From contig JAILZY010000100.1 of the NCBI GenBank assembly GCA_023512255.1, positions 1 through 12,119 on the forward strand: a DNA stretch of 12,119 nucleotides, read 5' to 3'. Below the pieces are notes generated by a model. It saw only the letters and a program-made list of their open reading frames with translations, was not told where the DNA came from and ran no database searches. Source of the DNA: a bacterium (GTDB taxonomy: Bacteria; SZUA-182; DTGQ01). Below, piece by piece: positions 100-9,676 of this stretch. Position 1 is the stretch's first letter, and each line of letters opens with the position of its first letter. The position numbers and the translations under genes were made by a program.

Positions 100-128
100 T
101 TGGCCTGGTTCAAAATTTAATATATAAT
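100..128 (+). promoter_or_regulatory. Candidate sigma-70-type promoter of the Rpn gene
   Basis: A perfect -10 hexamer TATAAT at 123-128 lies 17 bp downstream of TTGGCC (100-105), which matches the -35 consensus TTGACA at four of six positions. Transcription would start near 135 and leave a leader of about 30 nt before the ATG at 164. This is a consensus match only. Confidence 0.45.
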
Positions 129-163: not shown

Positions 164-1120
164 ATGTCAAAGAGAATTAACCCCTATGATCAGAGTTTGA
201 AGCTCGTTGTCAAGTACTACCCTAGGGTATTCGTAAGTCTACTAAACCTGGGTGAGAAGGTAGAAATAGCGGTGGAAAATCCGGAAATAAATCTGCCAGA
301 GAAGCGGGCTGACTATGTCTTGCGACTGACCACCGAAGATGGTCAGGAAGGGTATATTATCTTTGAGTTCCAGTTTATTGGAAGTACAGATGCTCTCAAA
401 AGTTGCTTTATCAAGTGTGCGCTGTTACATGAGCATACTAGCCTGCCAGTTATTGGAGTAATTATCTACCTCATGAAAAGGGGCTGTCAGCAGGTGTACG
501 ATATATGTTTTCAGGGTTGCCGGAATCAGTACCATTTTGAGATTATTCGGCTGTGGGAGTACCGGGAGGAGATAGAGAGTGGAAAATTAAAGGAGCTTGC
601 CCCCTTTCTCATCTTATTTACTGATGAGCCTGTAGAGGAGGTTTTGAACAGAGAGAAAAAACTGATTATGCAGGTTGAAGATGAGAAGAAACGGGCAAAT
701 CTTTTATCAATAGCCATGACTCTTGCTGCCCATCGGTTTAAAGGAGCTTGGGTTAAGGAGTACTTCAAGGAGGAAATTAAGATGGTCAAGTCGGCAGATA
801 TTATCCAGGAATGGATAGAAGAGGGAATCGAGAAGGGGAGAAAGGAGGGACTTCAACAAGGTATCCAGCAAGGCCTTCAACAAGGTATCCAGCAAGGCCT
901 TCAACAAGGCATCCAGCAAGGACTTCAGCAGGGGATCCAGCAAGGCATACGAGGTGGACTGCTGGATGCTATCTCATTTGGACTGGAGCTTAGGTTTGGA
1001 GTCGATGGATTGAAGTTGTATGAGCGGATCGGTCAGATAGATTCGGTGGAAAAGCTCAAGGCCATTAAGGAAGCAATCAGAATAGCCAAGGATATCAAAG
1101 AGATAGAAAGCTTGCTCTAG
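164..1120 (+). CDS. Rpn-family recombination-promoting nuclease / putative transposase (PD-(D/E)XK), full-length form
   Basis: 318 residues. The N-terminal ~200 residues look like the Rpn/YhgA PD-(D/E)XK nuclease fold: D50 in 'RADYVLRL' followed by the strand 'YIIFEFQ' with E68 and Q70, the E-x-Q form of the active site usual in this family. The middle is helical; residues 230-261 are four LQQGIQQG repeats, and a short C-terminal domain ends in KDIKEIESLL. The ATG at 164 has an AAGGGAG ribosome site at 148-154. Family knowledge: Rpn proteins are DNA endonucleases first linked to recombination and later reported as phage-defence toxins, inhibited by a short C-terminal product made from an internal start. 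An internal start of that kind is visible here (782). The gene stands alone, with argB starting 71 bp downstream. Family assignment is secure from motif and architecture; activity in this organism is inferred. Confidence 0.87.
   Translation: MSKRINPYDQSLKLVVKYYPRVFVSLLNLGEKVEIAVENPEINLPEKRADYVLRLTTEDGQEGYIIFEFQFIGSTDALKSCFIKCALLHEHTSLPVIGVIIYLMKRGCQQVYDICFQGCRNQYHFEIIRLWEYREEIESGKLKELAPFLILFTDEPVEEVLNREKKLIMQVEDEKKRANLLSIAMTLAAHRFKGAWVKEYFKEEIKMVKSADIIQEWIEEGIEKGRKEGLQQGIQQGLQQGIQQGLQQGIQQGLQQGIQQGIRGGLLDAISFGLELRFGVDGLKLYERIGQIDSVEKLKAIKEAIRIAKDIKEIESLL
767..784 (+). promoter_or_regulatory. Strong internal ribosome-binding site inside the Rpn gene
   Basis: AAGGAGG at 767-773 lies 8 nt before an ATG at 782 that is in frame with the Rpn reading frame (codon 207). 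Both sequence and spacing are near-ideal and at least as good as the site serving the full-length start at 164. It would initiate the separate C-terminal product described at 782-1120. Confidence 0.6.
782..1120 (+). CDS. Candidate RpnS: internally initiated C-terminal product (putative antitoxin)
   Basis: Initiation at the internal ATG would give a 112-residue protein identical to residues 207-318 of the long form. It starts MVKSADIIQEWIEEG, contains the whole LQQGIQQG array, and lacks the catalytic D50/E68/Q70. Established knowledge: in characterised Rpn systems the variable C-terminal domain is translated separately from within the nuclease gene, dimerises through a helix that can carry four-residue repeats of variable number, and neutralises the full-length toxin. 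The position just before a four-residue repeat array (LQQG/IQQG), the strong ribosome site and the in-frame ATG all fit. That this start is used in vivo is inference. Confidence 0.55.
   Translation: MVKSADIIQEWIEEGIEKGRKEGLQQGIQQGLQQGIQQGLQQGIQQGLQQGIQQGIRGGLLDAISFGLELRFGVDGLKLYERIGQIDSVEKLKAIKEAIRIAKDIKEIESLL
851..946 (+). repeat. Four tandem 24-bp repeats coding LQQGIQQG
   Basis: Units at 851-874, 875-898, 899-922 and 923-946. Units 1 and 2 are identical, unit 3 differs at two bases, and unit 4 is more diverged. Each unit starts CTTCAACAAGG (or CTTCAGCAGGG) and codes eight residues, so loss or gain of a unit keeps the frame. The array lies in the predicted dimerisation helix shared by the long and short Rpn products. 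Confidence 0.95.
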
Positions 1121-3835: not shown

Positions 3836-4786
3836 ATGGAAAAACATCTTGAGGGAGTTCATTGGCCAGGTCATAACCTAGCCTATGCTGATCTTACTCA
3901 AGCCTCGATGATTAGGGCCAATCTTGAGCGGGCCAATCTTGAGCGGGCTAACCTGTGGAGAGCAAACCTTGACTATGCCTATGCCCGTGAGGCATGTTTC
4001 AAACATGCTTCCTTGAGAGAGGCCCGAGGACAGAATATTAATCTTGAGCGTGCCTTTATGGAAGGAGCAGATCTGGCTTGGGCTTATCTGCCTGGATCTT
4101 TCCTCCATGCCGCCCATTTGGCCTGGGCTAACCTTGAGGGGGTTAATTTTCGCTCGGCTAACCTGACGCTTGCCAACCTTGCCCATGCCAAACTTATCAA
4201 TGCTGACCTTTGGGGAGCCAATCTGAGTCAGGCTAACCTTGAGGGAGCCGTACTAATCAACACCAGCCTGGAGAAAACCAATCTGCACGGCTGCAACCTG
4301 GCCTATGCCCAGCTGATTAACGTCAATCTGCGGGGCGCAAATCTCGGTCAGACAAGTTTCTACGGCGCTACTATTGATCAGGTAAATATGGACGAGGCCG
4401 CGCATATTCAGCAGGCGAATTTCGATCAGGCCACTTTTATTAATGGAAAGCTCTTACGTTTTATGAACTTTGCCAATGCCTCTTTTCAAAATCGAGACTT
4501 GCGCCAGGTAGATTTCCAGGGGGCAGATCTAGGCGGCGCCAACTTTGAGGGTGCCCAGCTGGATGGGGCCAATCTCAAAGATACCAATTTAATGTTCTGC
4601 AATTTTCAGGGAGCATCGATTCAAGGCACCCTGTTTGACTATGCCATTATGACTGGCGCTAATATCTCGCACATTGAGCAATTTCAGGGAGCTAGTTTTC
4701 GAGGGGTAAACTGGTGGGCGGCTAGTTGTCTTTCTCCTGAGGAGTTTAAAAATTATCTTAAGAAAAATTTTCCTGCTCGCTTCTAG
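3836..4786 (+). CDS. Pentapeptide-repeat protein
   Basis: 316 residues made almost entirely of A(D/N)LXX-type pentapeptides (ANLERANLERANLWRANL and similar), broken by looser stretches around residues 45-65 and 180-215. Such repeats form a right-handed quadrilateral beta-helix. The C-terminus (VNWWAASCLSPEEFKNYLKK) leaves the repeat pattern and is probably a helical cap. No signal peptide or membrane segment is visible, so a cytosolic location is likely. Some family members mimic DNA and protect gyrase (Qnr, MfpA), but nothing here singles out that role and the function is unknown. The ATG is preceded by GAGGAG (3821-3826). The leader carries a MITE and a hairpin; the 3' end is partly duplicated downstream. 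Confidence 0.92.
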   Translation: MEKHLEGVHWPGHNLAYADLTQASMIRANLERANLERANLWRANLDYAYAREACFKHASLREARGQNINLERAFMEGADLAWAYLPGSFLHAAHLAWANLEGVNFRSANLTLANLAHAKLINADLWGANLSQANLEGAVLINTSLEKTNLHGCNLAYAQLINVNLRGANLGQTSFYGATIDQVNMDEAAHIQQANFDQATFINGKLLRFMNFANASFQNRDLRQVDFQGADLGGANFEGAQLDGANLKDTNLMFCNFQGASIQGTLFDYAIMTGANISHIEQFQGASFRGVNWWAASCLSPEEFKNYLKKNFPARF

Positions 4787-5534: not shown

Positions 5535-8500
5535 TTAAAGCTGCTTTCTCTTCAAGAATCTATCTTCGAGAGACACGATCTTATCGCCCTGAGAAATTCC
5601 TTTGACAGTTTTATTGATCCCGTGCTTTTTCATCAATCGCCAGAGGGTAGAGCGGGCAATGCCTAGCCTCTGGGCCGTATGTCCTAGGTGTCCGCCTGTT
5701 TCCTTAAGGGCATTGATGATCATCCAGGCCTCCATTTCGTCAAGGGTTTGGATCTTTTCTCCTAATACCCGATCCTGCTCAGGTGCAGAGGGCGATTCGG
5801 TCTTCTTTTTCTTCTTTGCCTTCTGGATTTCTTCCGGGAAATCCTCTGGCATGAGGACATTTCTCTTGGCACAGATAAAGGCATGTTCAATGGTATTTTC
5901 CAGTTGACGGATGTTGCCTGGCCAGTCAAAGCTGACCAGACAATCCATGGCCGCTGGAGAGACCGAGGAAATATTCCGATTGAGCTTCTTATTGAATTGC
6001 TCGATAAAATGGTTGACTAGCAAAGGAATATCATCTACTCGCTCTTTCAGGGGGGGGAGGTAGATATTGACTACATTCAGCCGATAGTATAAATCCTCAC
6101 GAAATTCTCCCCTAGCTACTGCGGCCTTAAGGTCTTTGTTAGTAGCGGCGATAACCCGCACATTGACACTGATGGTCTTCAAAGACCCTACCCGCTCAAA
6201 TTGCCGCTCCTGTAGTACCCTGAGCAATTTTACCTGAATCATCGGGGAGATATCACCAATTTCGTCCAGAAATATAGTCCCACCGTCTGCCATTTCAAAT
6301 CGTCCCATTTTATCCCTGATAGCACCAGTGAATGCCCCTCGAACATGGCCAAAGAGCTCACTCTCCAAGAGCCCATCGGGCAGGGCCGAGCAGCTAACCC
6401 CGATGAAGGGCTTATCATGCTGAGGGCTATTGTAGTGAATTGCCCGGGCGATCAGCTCTTTTCCCGTACCGCTTGCTCCCTGGATGAGAACCGTAGTGAA
6501 TCCCTGGGAAACAATGGAGATAAGCTCGTAGATCTCCTGCATTTTGTGATTCTTTCCAATAATATTGCCGAACCGATAGCGCTCTTTAAGGTCCCGAAGT
6601 CGGTTTTGCTCAAATTCAAAAAGCTTGTTCTCCAGCCGCTTGCGCTCGGTAACATCGCGAAAGACCTTGAGCAAAGAGATCGTTCCATCTTCCATAACAA
6701 TAGGACTCATGGAAATATCGAGAGTCTGCCCTTGGAGAGAATCTCTAGTCAAGAATAGGCTTTGCCTTTTGTCTATGATCTCCTCCAGCACGCAGGCATC
6801 ACAAGGCTCGCTTCGTCCCCATAGGGCTTTATAGCAGAGCCTGTGGAGCTGATCCCCAAAGATTTTTTGACCGCTTTCATTCATGTATTGAATTGTGTAA
6901 TTTTTATCAATAATCATCACTCCGTCGCTTAGGCTCTTTAAAATAGCTCGAAACTTATCCCGGCTGACCTGGATCTCTTTTTCGAGTTTTCTCCTCTCTG
7001 TAATCTCGGTAAAGACCGCTGAGGCACCACGGTAGTCTCCCCGCTCATTGAAAATAGATGAGAGGCTGCAAATTAATGTCAAGTGTTCGCCTCTCTGATT
7101 AGGCAATTCGATCTCGAATGAAAATGCTTTATTTTTTTTGCTTTCTTCAATCGCCTCTTTCATTTTGACCTGATTTTCCACATCTAGGAAGATGCCGTAA
7201 TTCTGACCGATAATCTCTTTATGCTCATAGCCGAGCACTTCACAAAATTTTCGGTTTACAAAAGTAATTTTATCTTCATGGTCAATGACCATCAGCCCTT
7301 CATTCATCTGCTCGACCAGGTTTTGGTATCGGTTCTCGGATTCCTTGGCTAGGATATCCATCTTCCTCACCTGGGTAACATCTCTGGCCATCTCGACTAC
7401 TCTGGTGACTTTCCCCTCGTGATCTAGAATGGGTGAGGCACACATTTCATAGAAAAATTTCTGCCCTTTTTCCTCTCCCGTAACCTCCATCCAGTGGGAG
7501 TTACCATCGGCAAAGCTGGCCTTGACCACACATTCTGAGCATGGCTGATGCAGACCTCGATAGATTTGGTAACATTTTTTACCGATCAGACCCTCTCCGT
7601 TTCCCCTGGCATTACTCCACACTACCCGCAGCTCTGGATCAAGGATCACAATTCGGTCGTTAATTGACTGTAGGACCGCCCGCAGCTTGGCTTCTGATTT
7701 TTTAATCTTCTCTTCAAGCTGAATCTCGCGAGTCAGATACGCAACCCGCTCCTCAGTACAAACCCGTTTGTTATTGATGGCAATCAACAGAATGCTCCCT
7801 ACGGTCATTAAAGTGATGAGCCCTAACATAATCAGGGTAAATCTTTTCTGCAGCTTGCCAATGGGATTTGATATTTCGCTGTAGGGCGTGAACATGGTCA
7901 TGATCCAGGATTTGACCGGCAAATGTATAGGCGCATAAGACAAAAGCTCCATCCGGCCAAGATTGGGACTTATGACCCTAAGGAGGCCCTTCCCCTTGCC
8001 AAGCAGAAGCCTTAGGAAATCTTCCTTATTTTGGAATGGGAAGACCTTGTTTTTTTCATCGATCATCTTAATGTCTATATCCTTGATATTCTGTCCGATG
8101 AATTGGGGGCAGGGATGATCGAGGATCGTCCCGTCAGCATCAAGAATACTTACATAGCTTCCACCCAAGTTTACATGCCCGAGAAAATGGTCAGCCATCT
8201 TTTTGACATCAATATCCGCAGCCAGAGTACCTAATAATTTTCTCTGCTCATACCCCGCCGGCGAAGCCTCAGCAGGATGCGAAGTATCCACACCAAAGAC
8301 AGGAACGCTGATTCGTATTCTTCCCTCTCTCTTTTCATTAAAAAATAACTTGGATATGAATATCATGTCTCCACTGGGGCTTTTAGGCTGCTTTTCCCAG
8401 TCATAATCTGCCCTTATATCTTCACCTCTGTCAGCCAGTTGCGGGGCAGCTTGTTGTAATTTCCCCTGCTTATCAAAATAGAACAAGGAGACTAAAAAGC

Positions 8501-8840
8501 CATTTTTTTTGAGGTGAAGAGAATAGAGATTATCTAAGGCGGTCTGTTTGATCGGTATCGCTGAATCTTGGTCCGATTTTAATTCATTGAGGATACACAG
8601 ATCCTTGATAACCTCATTGATAACCTCTTCAATTCCATGAGCCGCACTTTCTACCGAGGTTAACTGATGCTTTTGAAATTCGCTGATAATGTTATCTTTA
8701 GATTGGGTATAGATGGAGAGAATAACAAAGATTAAAAGGATGACCGCCACAATACCGGCGATGATAATAGGGTGATTACTTCTATATATATTATCCAGGA
8801 ATATATTGCTCTTTTCTTTTAACTCCTGGCCAATGCTCAT
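5535..8840 (-). CDS. Membrane-bound sigma-54-dependent transcriptional activator with Cache-like sensor and three PAS domains
   Basis: About 1101 residues from the ATG at 8840. A TTG six codons upstream (8858) is possible, but GGAG lies 10 nt before the ATG. Order: TM 25-44; periplasmic double-Cache-like sensor ~48-330; TM ~334-355; coiled linker; PAS1 ~385-494; PAS2 ~500-615; PAS3 ~627-734; AAA+ ~758-990 with Walker A GASGTGKE (788-795), the sigma-54-contacting GAFTGA loop (835-840) and Walker B FLDEIGD (D859, E860); Fis-type helix-turn-helix ~1045-1072 ([19 protein letters not shown]). Known: GAFTGA AAA+ proteins remodel sigma-54 RNA polymerase from enhancer sites. Here sensing and activation sit in one chain, with no kinase or receiver, so an extracytoplasmic ligand may control transcription directly (inference). 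PAS1 and PAS3 share C-Y-x9-C-x2-C (C423/C434/C437; C669/C680/C683). A CheY-like gene lies upstream on the same strand. The target genes are not evident. Confidence 0.93.
8253..8276 (-). repeat. Short hairpin-forming repeat in frame in the activator gene (copy A)
   Basis: On the minus strand the 24 bases start CCTGCTGAGGCTTCGCCGGC and code PAEASPAG within the sensor region (residues ~189-196), a small Ala/Pro-rich insertion in an otherwise ordinary Cache-like domain. A nearly identical sequence with one extra G occurs in the same reading frame in tilS (11698-11717). It can fold as a hairpin, with GGC-ttc-GCC at the tip. Confidence 0.5.
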
Positions 8841-8923
8841 GAATAATAATCTCCACAACTCCCCCCTTCGTAGCTTTTAAGAAAAATTATCTGATAGAAA
8901 TAGAAAGGCATAATTAATTTAAT

Positions 8924-9264: not shown

Positions 9265-9645
9265 TCATGAAGGTTGATTCAGGATATTTGAGACGAACTG
9301 CTTTAATTCTTCAATTCGAAGTGGCTTGTTAAGGAATTCATCCGCCCCTTGTTCCATAGCCTCAAGATATGATTTTTGCCCTCCGAAGGCGGTAATTAGC
9401 ACAACCTTAATATTAGGGTCTTTCTTTCGAACCGCCTTCAACAGCCTGACTCCTCCCATCTGTGGCATATTTTTATCGGCTAAAATCAGATCGAAGTGAT
9501 CTTCCTCGATCTTGTCTAGGGCCTGCTTACCATTTTGGGCAGTGGCGATTCCATACCCCGCCTCTTCCAAAGCCTCCCGGTAAACGCTGCAAAGCTCTTC
9601 ATTATCATCCACAATTAATATCTTAGGCACCTTTTTTGTATCCAT
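9265..9645 (-). CDS. Stand-alone response-regulator receiver domain protein (CheY/Spo0F-like)
   Basis: 126 residues from the ATG at 9645; an in-frame TTG one codon earlier is less likely. AGAGGGA lies about 8 nt upstream of the ATG. It is a single receiver domain with no output domain. In the frame that counts the TTG as residue 1: acidic pair D14-D15 (IVDDNEE), phospho-acceptor D58 in LILADKNMP, T86 in VLITAFGG, and K108 in FLNKPL. All residues needed for phosphorylation are present. Single-domain receivers act in phosphorelays or bind partner proteins. No histidine kinase lies in the window; the next gene on the same strand is the sigma-54 activator, but a 424-bp gap with its own structures separates them, so a shared operon is uncertain. 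The stop overlaps a small CATGAA/TTCATG inverted repeat (9253-9268). Confidence 0.93.
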   Translation of the reverse strand: MDTKKVPKILIVDDNEELCSVYREALEEAGYGIATAQNGKQALDKIEEDHFDLILADKNMPQMGGVRLLKAVRKKDPNIKVVLITAFGGQKSYLEAMEQGADEFLNKPLRIEELKQFVSNILNQPS

Positions 9646-9676
9646 CAATTTTTCCCTCTTTTCAATTTTCCTTACA

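Follow-up and report, generated by a model that had tools for sequence, protein, structure and literature searches.

A divergent Rpn-type gene that probably encodes its own antitoxin from an internal start conserved across unrelated Rpn types

The window analyzed here, a 12,119-nucleotide stretch of bacterial DNA, contains a gene that very probably makes both a DNA-cutting nuclease and, separately, its own C-terminal tail. Judged from comparison with its relatives, the gene is very probably a divergent gene-within-gene toxin–antitoxin of the Rpn family, as described for E. coli (Zhong et al., PMC10327210), and a single-gene Rpn-type toxin–antitoxin unit is, with good confidence, the best explanation of its layout. 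The sequence-only reading had placed a Shine–Dalgarno (SD) motif, AAGGAGG, ahead of an in-frame ATG that would start a 112-residue C-terminal product just before a series of four-residue repeats. Upon re-reading of the sequence, these positions are exact (Table 1): the ATG is codon 207 of the long open reading frame and follows the SD motif after a gap of 8 nt. The first glycine of the repeats lies 14 residues past Met207, as the proposed placement requires and inside the range of 8–20 residues given for repeats after the internal Met in the published systems (Zhong et al., PMC10327210).

Table 1 Features of the Rpn-type gene, in window coordinates.
Feature	Position	Strand	Basis
Long product, RpnL-like, 318 aa	164..1120	+	Open reading frame with ATG start; paralogues, AF2 model, structure comparison
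Layout of long product: N-terminal PD-(D/E)XK nuclease domain, linker, four-residue-repeat helix, C-terminal helical domain
Nuclease part, residues 1-206, in long product only	164..781	+	AF2 model, structural matches
Putative active site D50...E68-x-Q70	311..373 (codons 311-313, 365-367, 371-373)	+	Invariance in family
Internal Shine–Dalgarno AAGGAGG	767..773	+	Sequence, anti-SD energy, kept in paralogues and other Rpn types
Short-product ORF, RpnS-like, probable antitoxin, 112 aa	782..1120	+	In-frame ATG; Met aligned across homologues
G-[IL]-Q-Q four-residue repeats, 11 steps, residues 221-265	824..958	+	Modelled as one long helix
DNA tandem repeat within repeat region, period 12/24 nt	851-948
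C-terminal helical domain, type a, weakly DUF4351-like	962..1117	+	Common to other Rpn nuclease types
Promoter-like site TTGGCC-17-TATAAT, long transcript	100..128	+	Consensus scan only, 10/12 matches

The internal site is the stronger of the two start sites of the gene, with an anti-SD pairing energy of −11.4 kcal/mol compared to −7.6 kcal/mol at the start of the long product, and it ranks best among the seven internal in-frame ATG/GTG codons. Sites of this strength precede 8 of 1159 (0.7%) internal in-frame ATGs in 197 long ORFs, a background drawn from 20 stretches of the host genome and that of a sister species. The region from −15 to +3 around the ATG is also predicted to be accessible (mean unpaired probability 0.70, 99th percentile of the in-frame positions of the gene). 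The measure itself was validated on E. coli, where the known internal starts of rpnA (M244), rpnB, rpnC and rpnE each rank first in their gene (−8.5 to −10.8). When the window gene was resampled with synonymous codons, the site strength was equalled in 28% of cases (P = 0.28), since the residues K-E-E favor AAGGAGG; taken alone, this gene is thus suggestive only and cannot decide the matter, which falls to comparison with its relatives. A consensus scan of the gene found no promoter-like site well upstream of the internal SD, in contrast to the E. coli rpn genes, which have an internal transcription start (PMC10327210).

The closest comparison is provided by the paralogues. Full-length copies number four in the host genome (L001–L004) and one intact in the sister species (L008), are 55–69% identical, and are accompanied in the sister species by broken or shortened copies. 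Seven genes of the genus cover the site; each has an ATG at the matching alignment position, and six of the seven reach a pairing energy of −9 or better, where about 0.04 would be expected per gene. The exception, L004, has a weak site (−6.0) and a Met shifted one residue later. In L010, the Lys codon is now GCG (Ala) and GGAGG is retained. Conservation of the SD and ATG in close homologues, on which the sequence-only reading had staked its proposal, is therefore observed, and the variable repeat number that it took from the known systems is seen as well, with 2–11 steps among the paralogues.

In the sister genome, three copies are degraded, and each retains its internal start and some or all of its tail. 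In L015 (G001:C33:104544-104768, minus strand), the nuclease domain is deleted, such that the start MPKK is fused directly to ERADLLSIAM..., and the tail is truncated. In a tandem pair of window-type genes (L012/L010 and L008, G001:C30:71857-73700), the first gene is frameshifted in the nuclease part, with the internal SD/ATG and tail intact. Finally, an intact gene of the DUF2887 type (L065, G001:C54:~126800-128250) is followed directly 3′ by a second, nuclease-less copy (L065/L067) of 156 aa that comprises only the C-terminal part, has its own strong SD/ATG, and opens its frame about 20 nt past the L065 stop. This arrangement resembles that of E. coli ypaA/rpnES downstream of rpnE (PMC10327210). 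Two contigs of the host genome (L005 and L006; G000:C20 and C117, first 150 bases) open with the same type a tail, just past the would-be repeats; at least one more copy in this genome is therefore probable, with the repeats as the probable cause of the assembly breaks.

More distant homologues are found in cyanobacteria. Using tblastn, residues 8–215 match cyanobacterial plasmid proteins annotated as Rpn or DUF4351 (23–27% identity, E to 4e-8), two of which pass the TIGR01784 model (2e-22 and 2e-25), while another has a clear DUF4351 tail (PF14261, E 6e-23). Several have such a tail, and, as a difference from the window gene, they have few or no four-residue repeats. All 13 sampled genes have a Met at the corresponding boundary, as (D/E)(I/V/T)M, and in 12 of them no other internal start scores higher. 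As in the window gene, an SD accompanies this Met; one example of the group is WP_341531813.1, from a plasmid of Nostoc sp. UHCC 0302. The residues before this Met vary (RED, RRD, RKD, RSE, REE), and the SD is rebuilt each time. In the RSE class, TTA AGG AGT GAA ATC ATG spells AAGGAG in a codon phase that differs from that of AAG GAG GAA in the window. Upon synonymous resampling, P values are 0.007–0.008 for RKD, 0.015–0.017 for RSE, and 0.08–0.09 for RED, RRD and REE, with one weak-site gene at 0.54. This rebuilding is the strongest indication that selection acts on the nucleotides as such.

Rpn genes of other types also show this placement. Within the same genus and family, unrelated N-terminal sequences have an SD/ATG directly 5′ of the repeats in five local contexts: YEEEKK-M (−12.3) in a truncated type, SREEVIQ-M (−13.3) in the DUF2887 type, and DKEGIV-M (−11.9), DKEDLI-M (−12.2) and GGEI-M (−10.2) in further Rpn types. 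A type from genome G078 reads AAGGAGGTAnAAAAA...GTG, with a pairing energy of −12.6. Of 24 PF04754 genes from a diverse set of genomes, 19 have a linker site of −9 or better; the nuclease domains, which offer 1.7 times the number of codons, have one such site. The DUF2887 family (PF11103) is Rpn-like, with moderate profile–profile similarity to the window protein over 177 columns; profile–profile comparison with the PF04754 and PF12784 alignments is weak. The sister-genome DUF2887 copy has a type a tail and an internal SD of −13.3. DUF2887 is a separate Pfam family, and its internal site is weaker in other sampled genomes.

PF12784-type genes behave differently. In a first survey, none of 25 had a strong internal start close to the tail, and the type was initially taken to lack one. 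This idea was rejected upon a second pass over the whole ORF, which located strong internal starts further upstream in several of them, 103–118 residues from the end and in one case 181. The PF12784 copies in the genus of the window showed no strong site. In five PF12784-type genes (L105, L108, L113, L124 and L130), a strong SD and ATG lie about 180 codons into the matched domain, at a greater distance from the tail than in other Rpn types, and may perhaps give a longer short form.

Given this comparative evidence, the internal SD/ATG is clearly more than what chance would be expected to give, and at the level of sequence the sequence-only reading is well supported. Because the residues and the codon phase differ while the SD is kept at an equal architectural place, the internal start appears to be selected as nucleotide sequence across unrelated Rpn types.

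An AF2 model of the long product (six sequences, pLDDT 71.7) has an alpha-beta-beta-beta-alpha-beta core, and the top structural matches are PD-(D/E)XK endonucleases, led by EndoMS (2vld_B, Z 10.5, rmsd of 2.2 over 96 residues) and followed by PaqCI, McrC, Can2, MspJI and NucC; the nuclease fold expected of an Rpn protein is thus seen in the model. D50, E68 and Q70 are invariant in five of five full-length family members and are placed in the model where the motif is expected, as putative catalytic residues. The model of the short form (pLDDT 81.5) consists of a long helix (4–77) containing the repeats and three short helices after it, in agreement with the statement that the repeats lengthen the first helix of the short form (Zhong et al., PMC10327210). 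The structure of E. coli RpnAS (7TH0) is a dimer of three-helix bundles with a long first helix (PMC10327210); it is not among the structural matches listed for the short form, and it is absent from a sequence search of solved structures, which returned repeat or low-complexity matches only.

The window gene is not recognized as Rpn by Pfam, NCBIfam or PADLOC, and its nuclease domain has no match to PF04754, PF12784 or TIGR01784 at E < 1. The one hit, TIGR01784 at 0.03, lies over the repeat side. This sub-threshold score is best read as that of a divergent subfamily, not as exclusion from the Rpn family; membership is supported by homology to the TIGR01784-passing cyanobacterial proteins, by fold and by architecture. 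The earlier identification as Rpn holds on these grounds, with the qualification that the standard profiles miss the gene. Matches to FliH (NCBIfam) and Yae1_N (Pfam) were rejected as due to GxxxG-type repeats and not to protein homology. As such, the repeats at window positions 782-958 are a trap for automatic annotation. No relatives were found in viral contigs or phage records, and a search of genome contigs returned one distant Lachnospiraceae locus only.

The C-terminal domain has a distribution of its own. The window gene and L002, which has 10 repeat steps, share the type a tail (72% identical), and in the sister genome the same domain is also found on three other kinds of N-terminal part: the window tail is 51–62% identical to those on PF12784-type (L060, L061), DUF2887-type (L065) and truncated (L057) N-domains. 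L003, L004 and L008, with nuclease domains 60–63% identical to that of the window gene, carry a type b tail that is 19–31% identical to the window tail and is related to the tails of PF04754-type proteins (28–45% identical). Five of 14 related tails match PF14261 (DUF4351) weakly (best E 0.0054, cut-off 25 bits); the window tail itself has no match to this model. The simplest reading of these sequences is a C-terminal domain that passes from one toxin type to another. More speculatively, and perhaps less probably than not by some distance, the C-terminal antitoxin domain may serve throughout the genus as an exchangeable cassette on at least four N-terminal kinds, three of them nuclease families. 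The short protein of one locus could then neutralize, or fail to neutralize, toxins of other families, and repeat number and tail type would encode which partners match in a combinatorial Rpn network.

In the preferred explanation, the full-length protein would be a PD-(D/E)XK nuclease toxin that oligomerizes via the repeat helix and C-terminal domain. Ribosomes would also initiate at the internal ATG to give the 112-residue C-terminal domain alone, and this short form is expected to outnumber the long form, given that its start site is the stronger of the two and is predicted to be accessible. The short form would pair with the matching domain of the long form and block the nuclease, with the fit between partners set by repeat number and tail type, and phage infection or DNA stress would release the free nuclease. 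This scheme follows E. coli, where the short form is translated from such an internal start and blocks toxicity, SOS induction and DNA cleavage, the two forms make a 2:2 complex, one added repeat alters specificity, and one plasmid-borne Rpn member protects against T-even phages (PMC10327210). The short product has been demonstrated in E. coli and for one C. difficile gene (Zhong et al., PMC10327210). In common with E. coli RpnA–RpnE (COG5464, PF04754; Zhong et al. 2023), the window gene has a PD-(D/E)XK N-terminal domain, an internal SD with in-frame ATG, repeats of variable number just past the internal Met, and a short form predicted to have a long first helix. It differs in a nuclease that is missed by PF04754, PF12784 and TIGR01784 and has the motif D..E-x-Q, in G-[IL]-Q-Q repeats, and in a C-terminal sequence that is other than that of RpnS and weakly DUF4351-like. 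By analogy with E. coli, we infer that the long form is toxic, that the short form inhibits it, and that the gene acts in phage defence. Since no defence genes are seen beside the gene or its copies, a role against phage is less secure than the two-product layout.

Three other explanations were weighed. The internal SD/ATG could be a by-product of a charged helix, in which K-E-E is followed by Met at a domain boundary, with no short protein of importance. The resampling result for the window gene suits this idea, Lys-Glu-Glu codons readily spelling AAGGAGG, but the site is found at an equal architectural place in types with unrelated residues (YEEEKKM, SREEVIQM, DKEGIVM, GGEIM, LRREDIM), cyanobacteria form the SD anew in a different codon phase, and the same measure recovers the proven E. 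coli starts, which together make a by-product improbable. It is very improbable that the short protein is made but works, like Cas11d in type I-D Cascade, as a subunit with a structural or activating role in the nuclease complex, and not as an antitoxin. The domain is a predicted long oligomerizing helix and internal starts also serve subunits (Cas10d/Cas11d, cited in PMC10327210); however, the E. coli short form has been shown to inhibit its long partner both in vivo and in vitro (PMC10327210), and the persistence of free-standing or nuclease-less tails (L015 and the second C54 copy) suits an antitoxin.

The third explanation keeps the two-product Rpn nuclease and assigns it to DNA mobility or recombination, or to plasmid or chromosome maintenance, rather than to phage defence. 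Rpn proteins were originally reported to promote recombination (Kingston et al. 2017, cited in PMC10327210), many of the distant homologues sit on cyanobacterial plasmids, and the neighbors look, by eye, like housekeeping genes (argB, tilS, hydrogenase-like, uvrA-like) with no defence island. Set against these points, there is no sign of autonomous transposition and one member gives phage protection (Zhong et al., PMC10327210), so that this role is considered rather unlikely. Downstream of the gene is a NAG-kinase gene (argB-like), followed by what appear by eye to be ordinary metabolic and regulatory genes. Elsewhere in the window, a 316-aa protein at 3836-4786 (+) consists mostly of pentapeptide repeats, A(N/D)LxxA, and a large sensor-regulator at 5535-8858 (−), by appearance with PAS domains and a sigma-54 activator domain, is adjoined by a receiver-domain protein at 9265-9648 (−).

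With a single-gene toxin–antitoxin unit as the preferred explanation, the Rpn gene-within-gene design would extend to a nuclease subfamily that is missed by the standard profiles tested. Beyond the known Rpn case, the comparison points to conservation of the internal start at the nucleotide level across unrelated Rpn types and to exchange of the C-terminal domain between them. With C-terminal domains shared and swapped in this way, natural pairs drawn from a single genus offer a direct test of antitoxin specificity.
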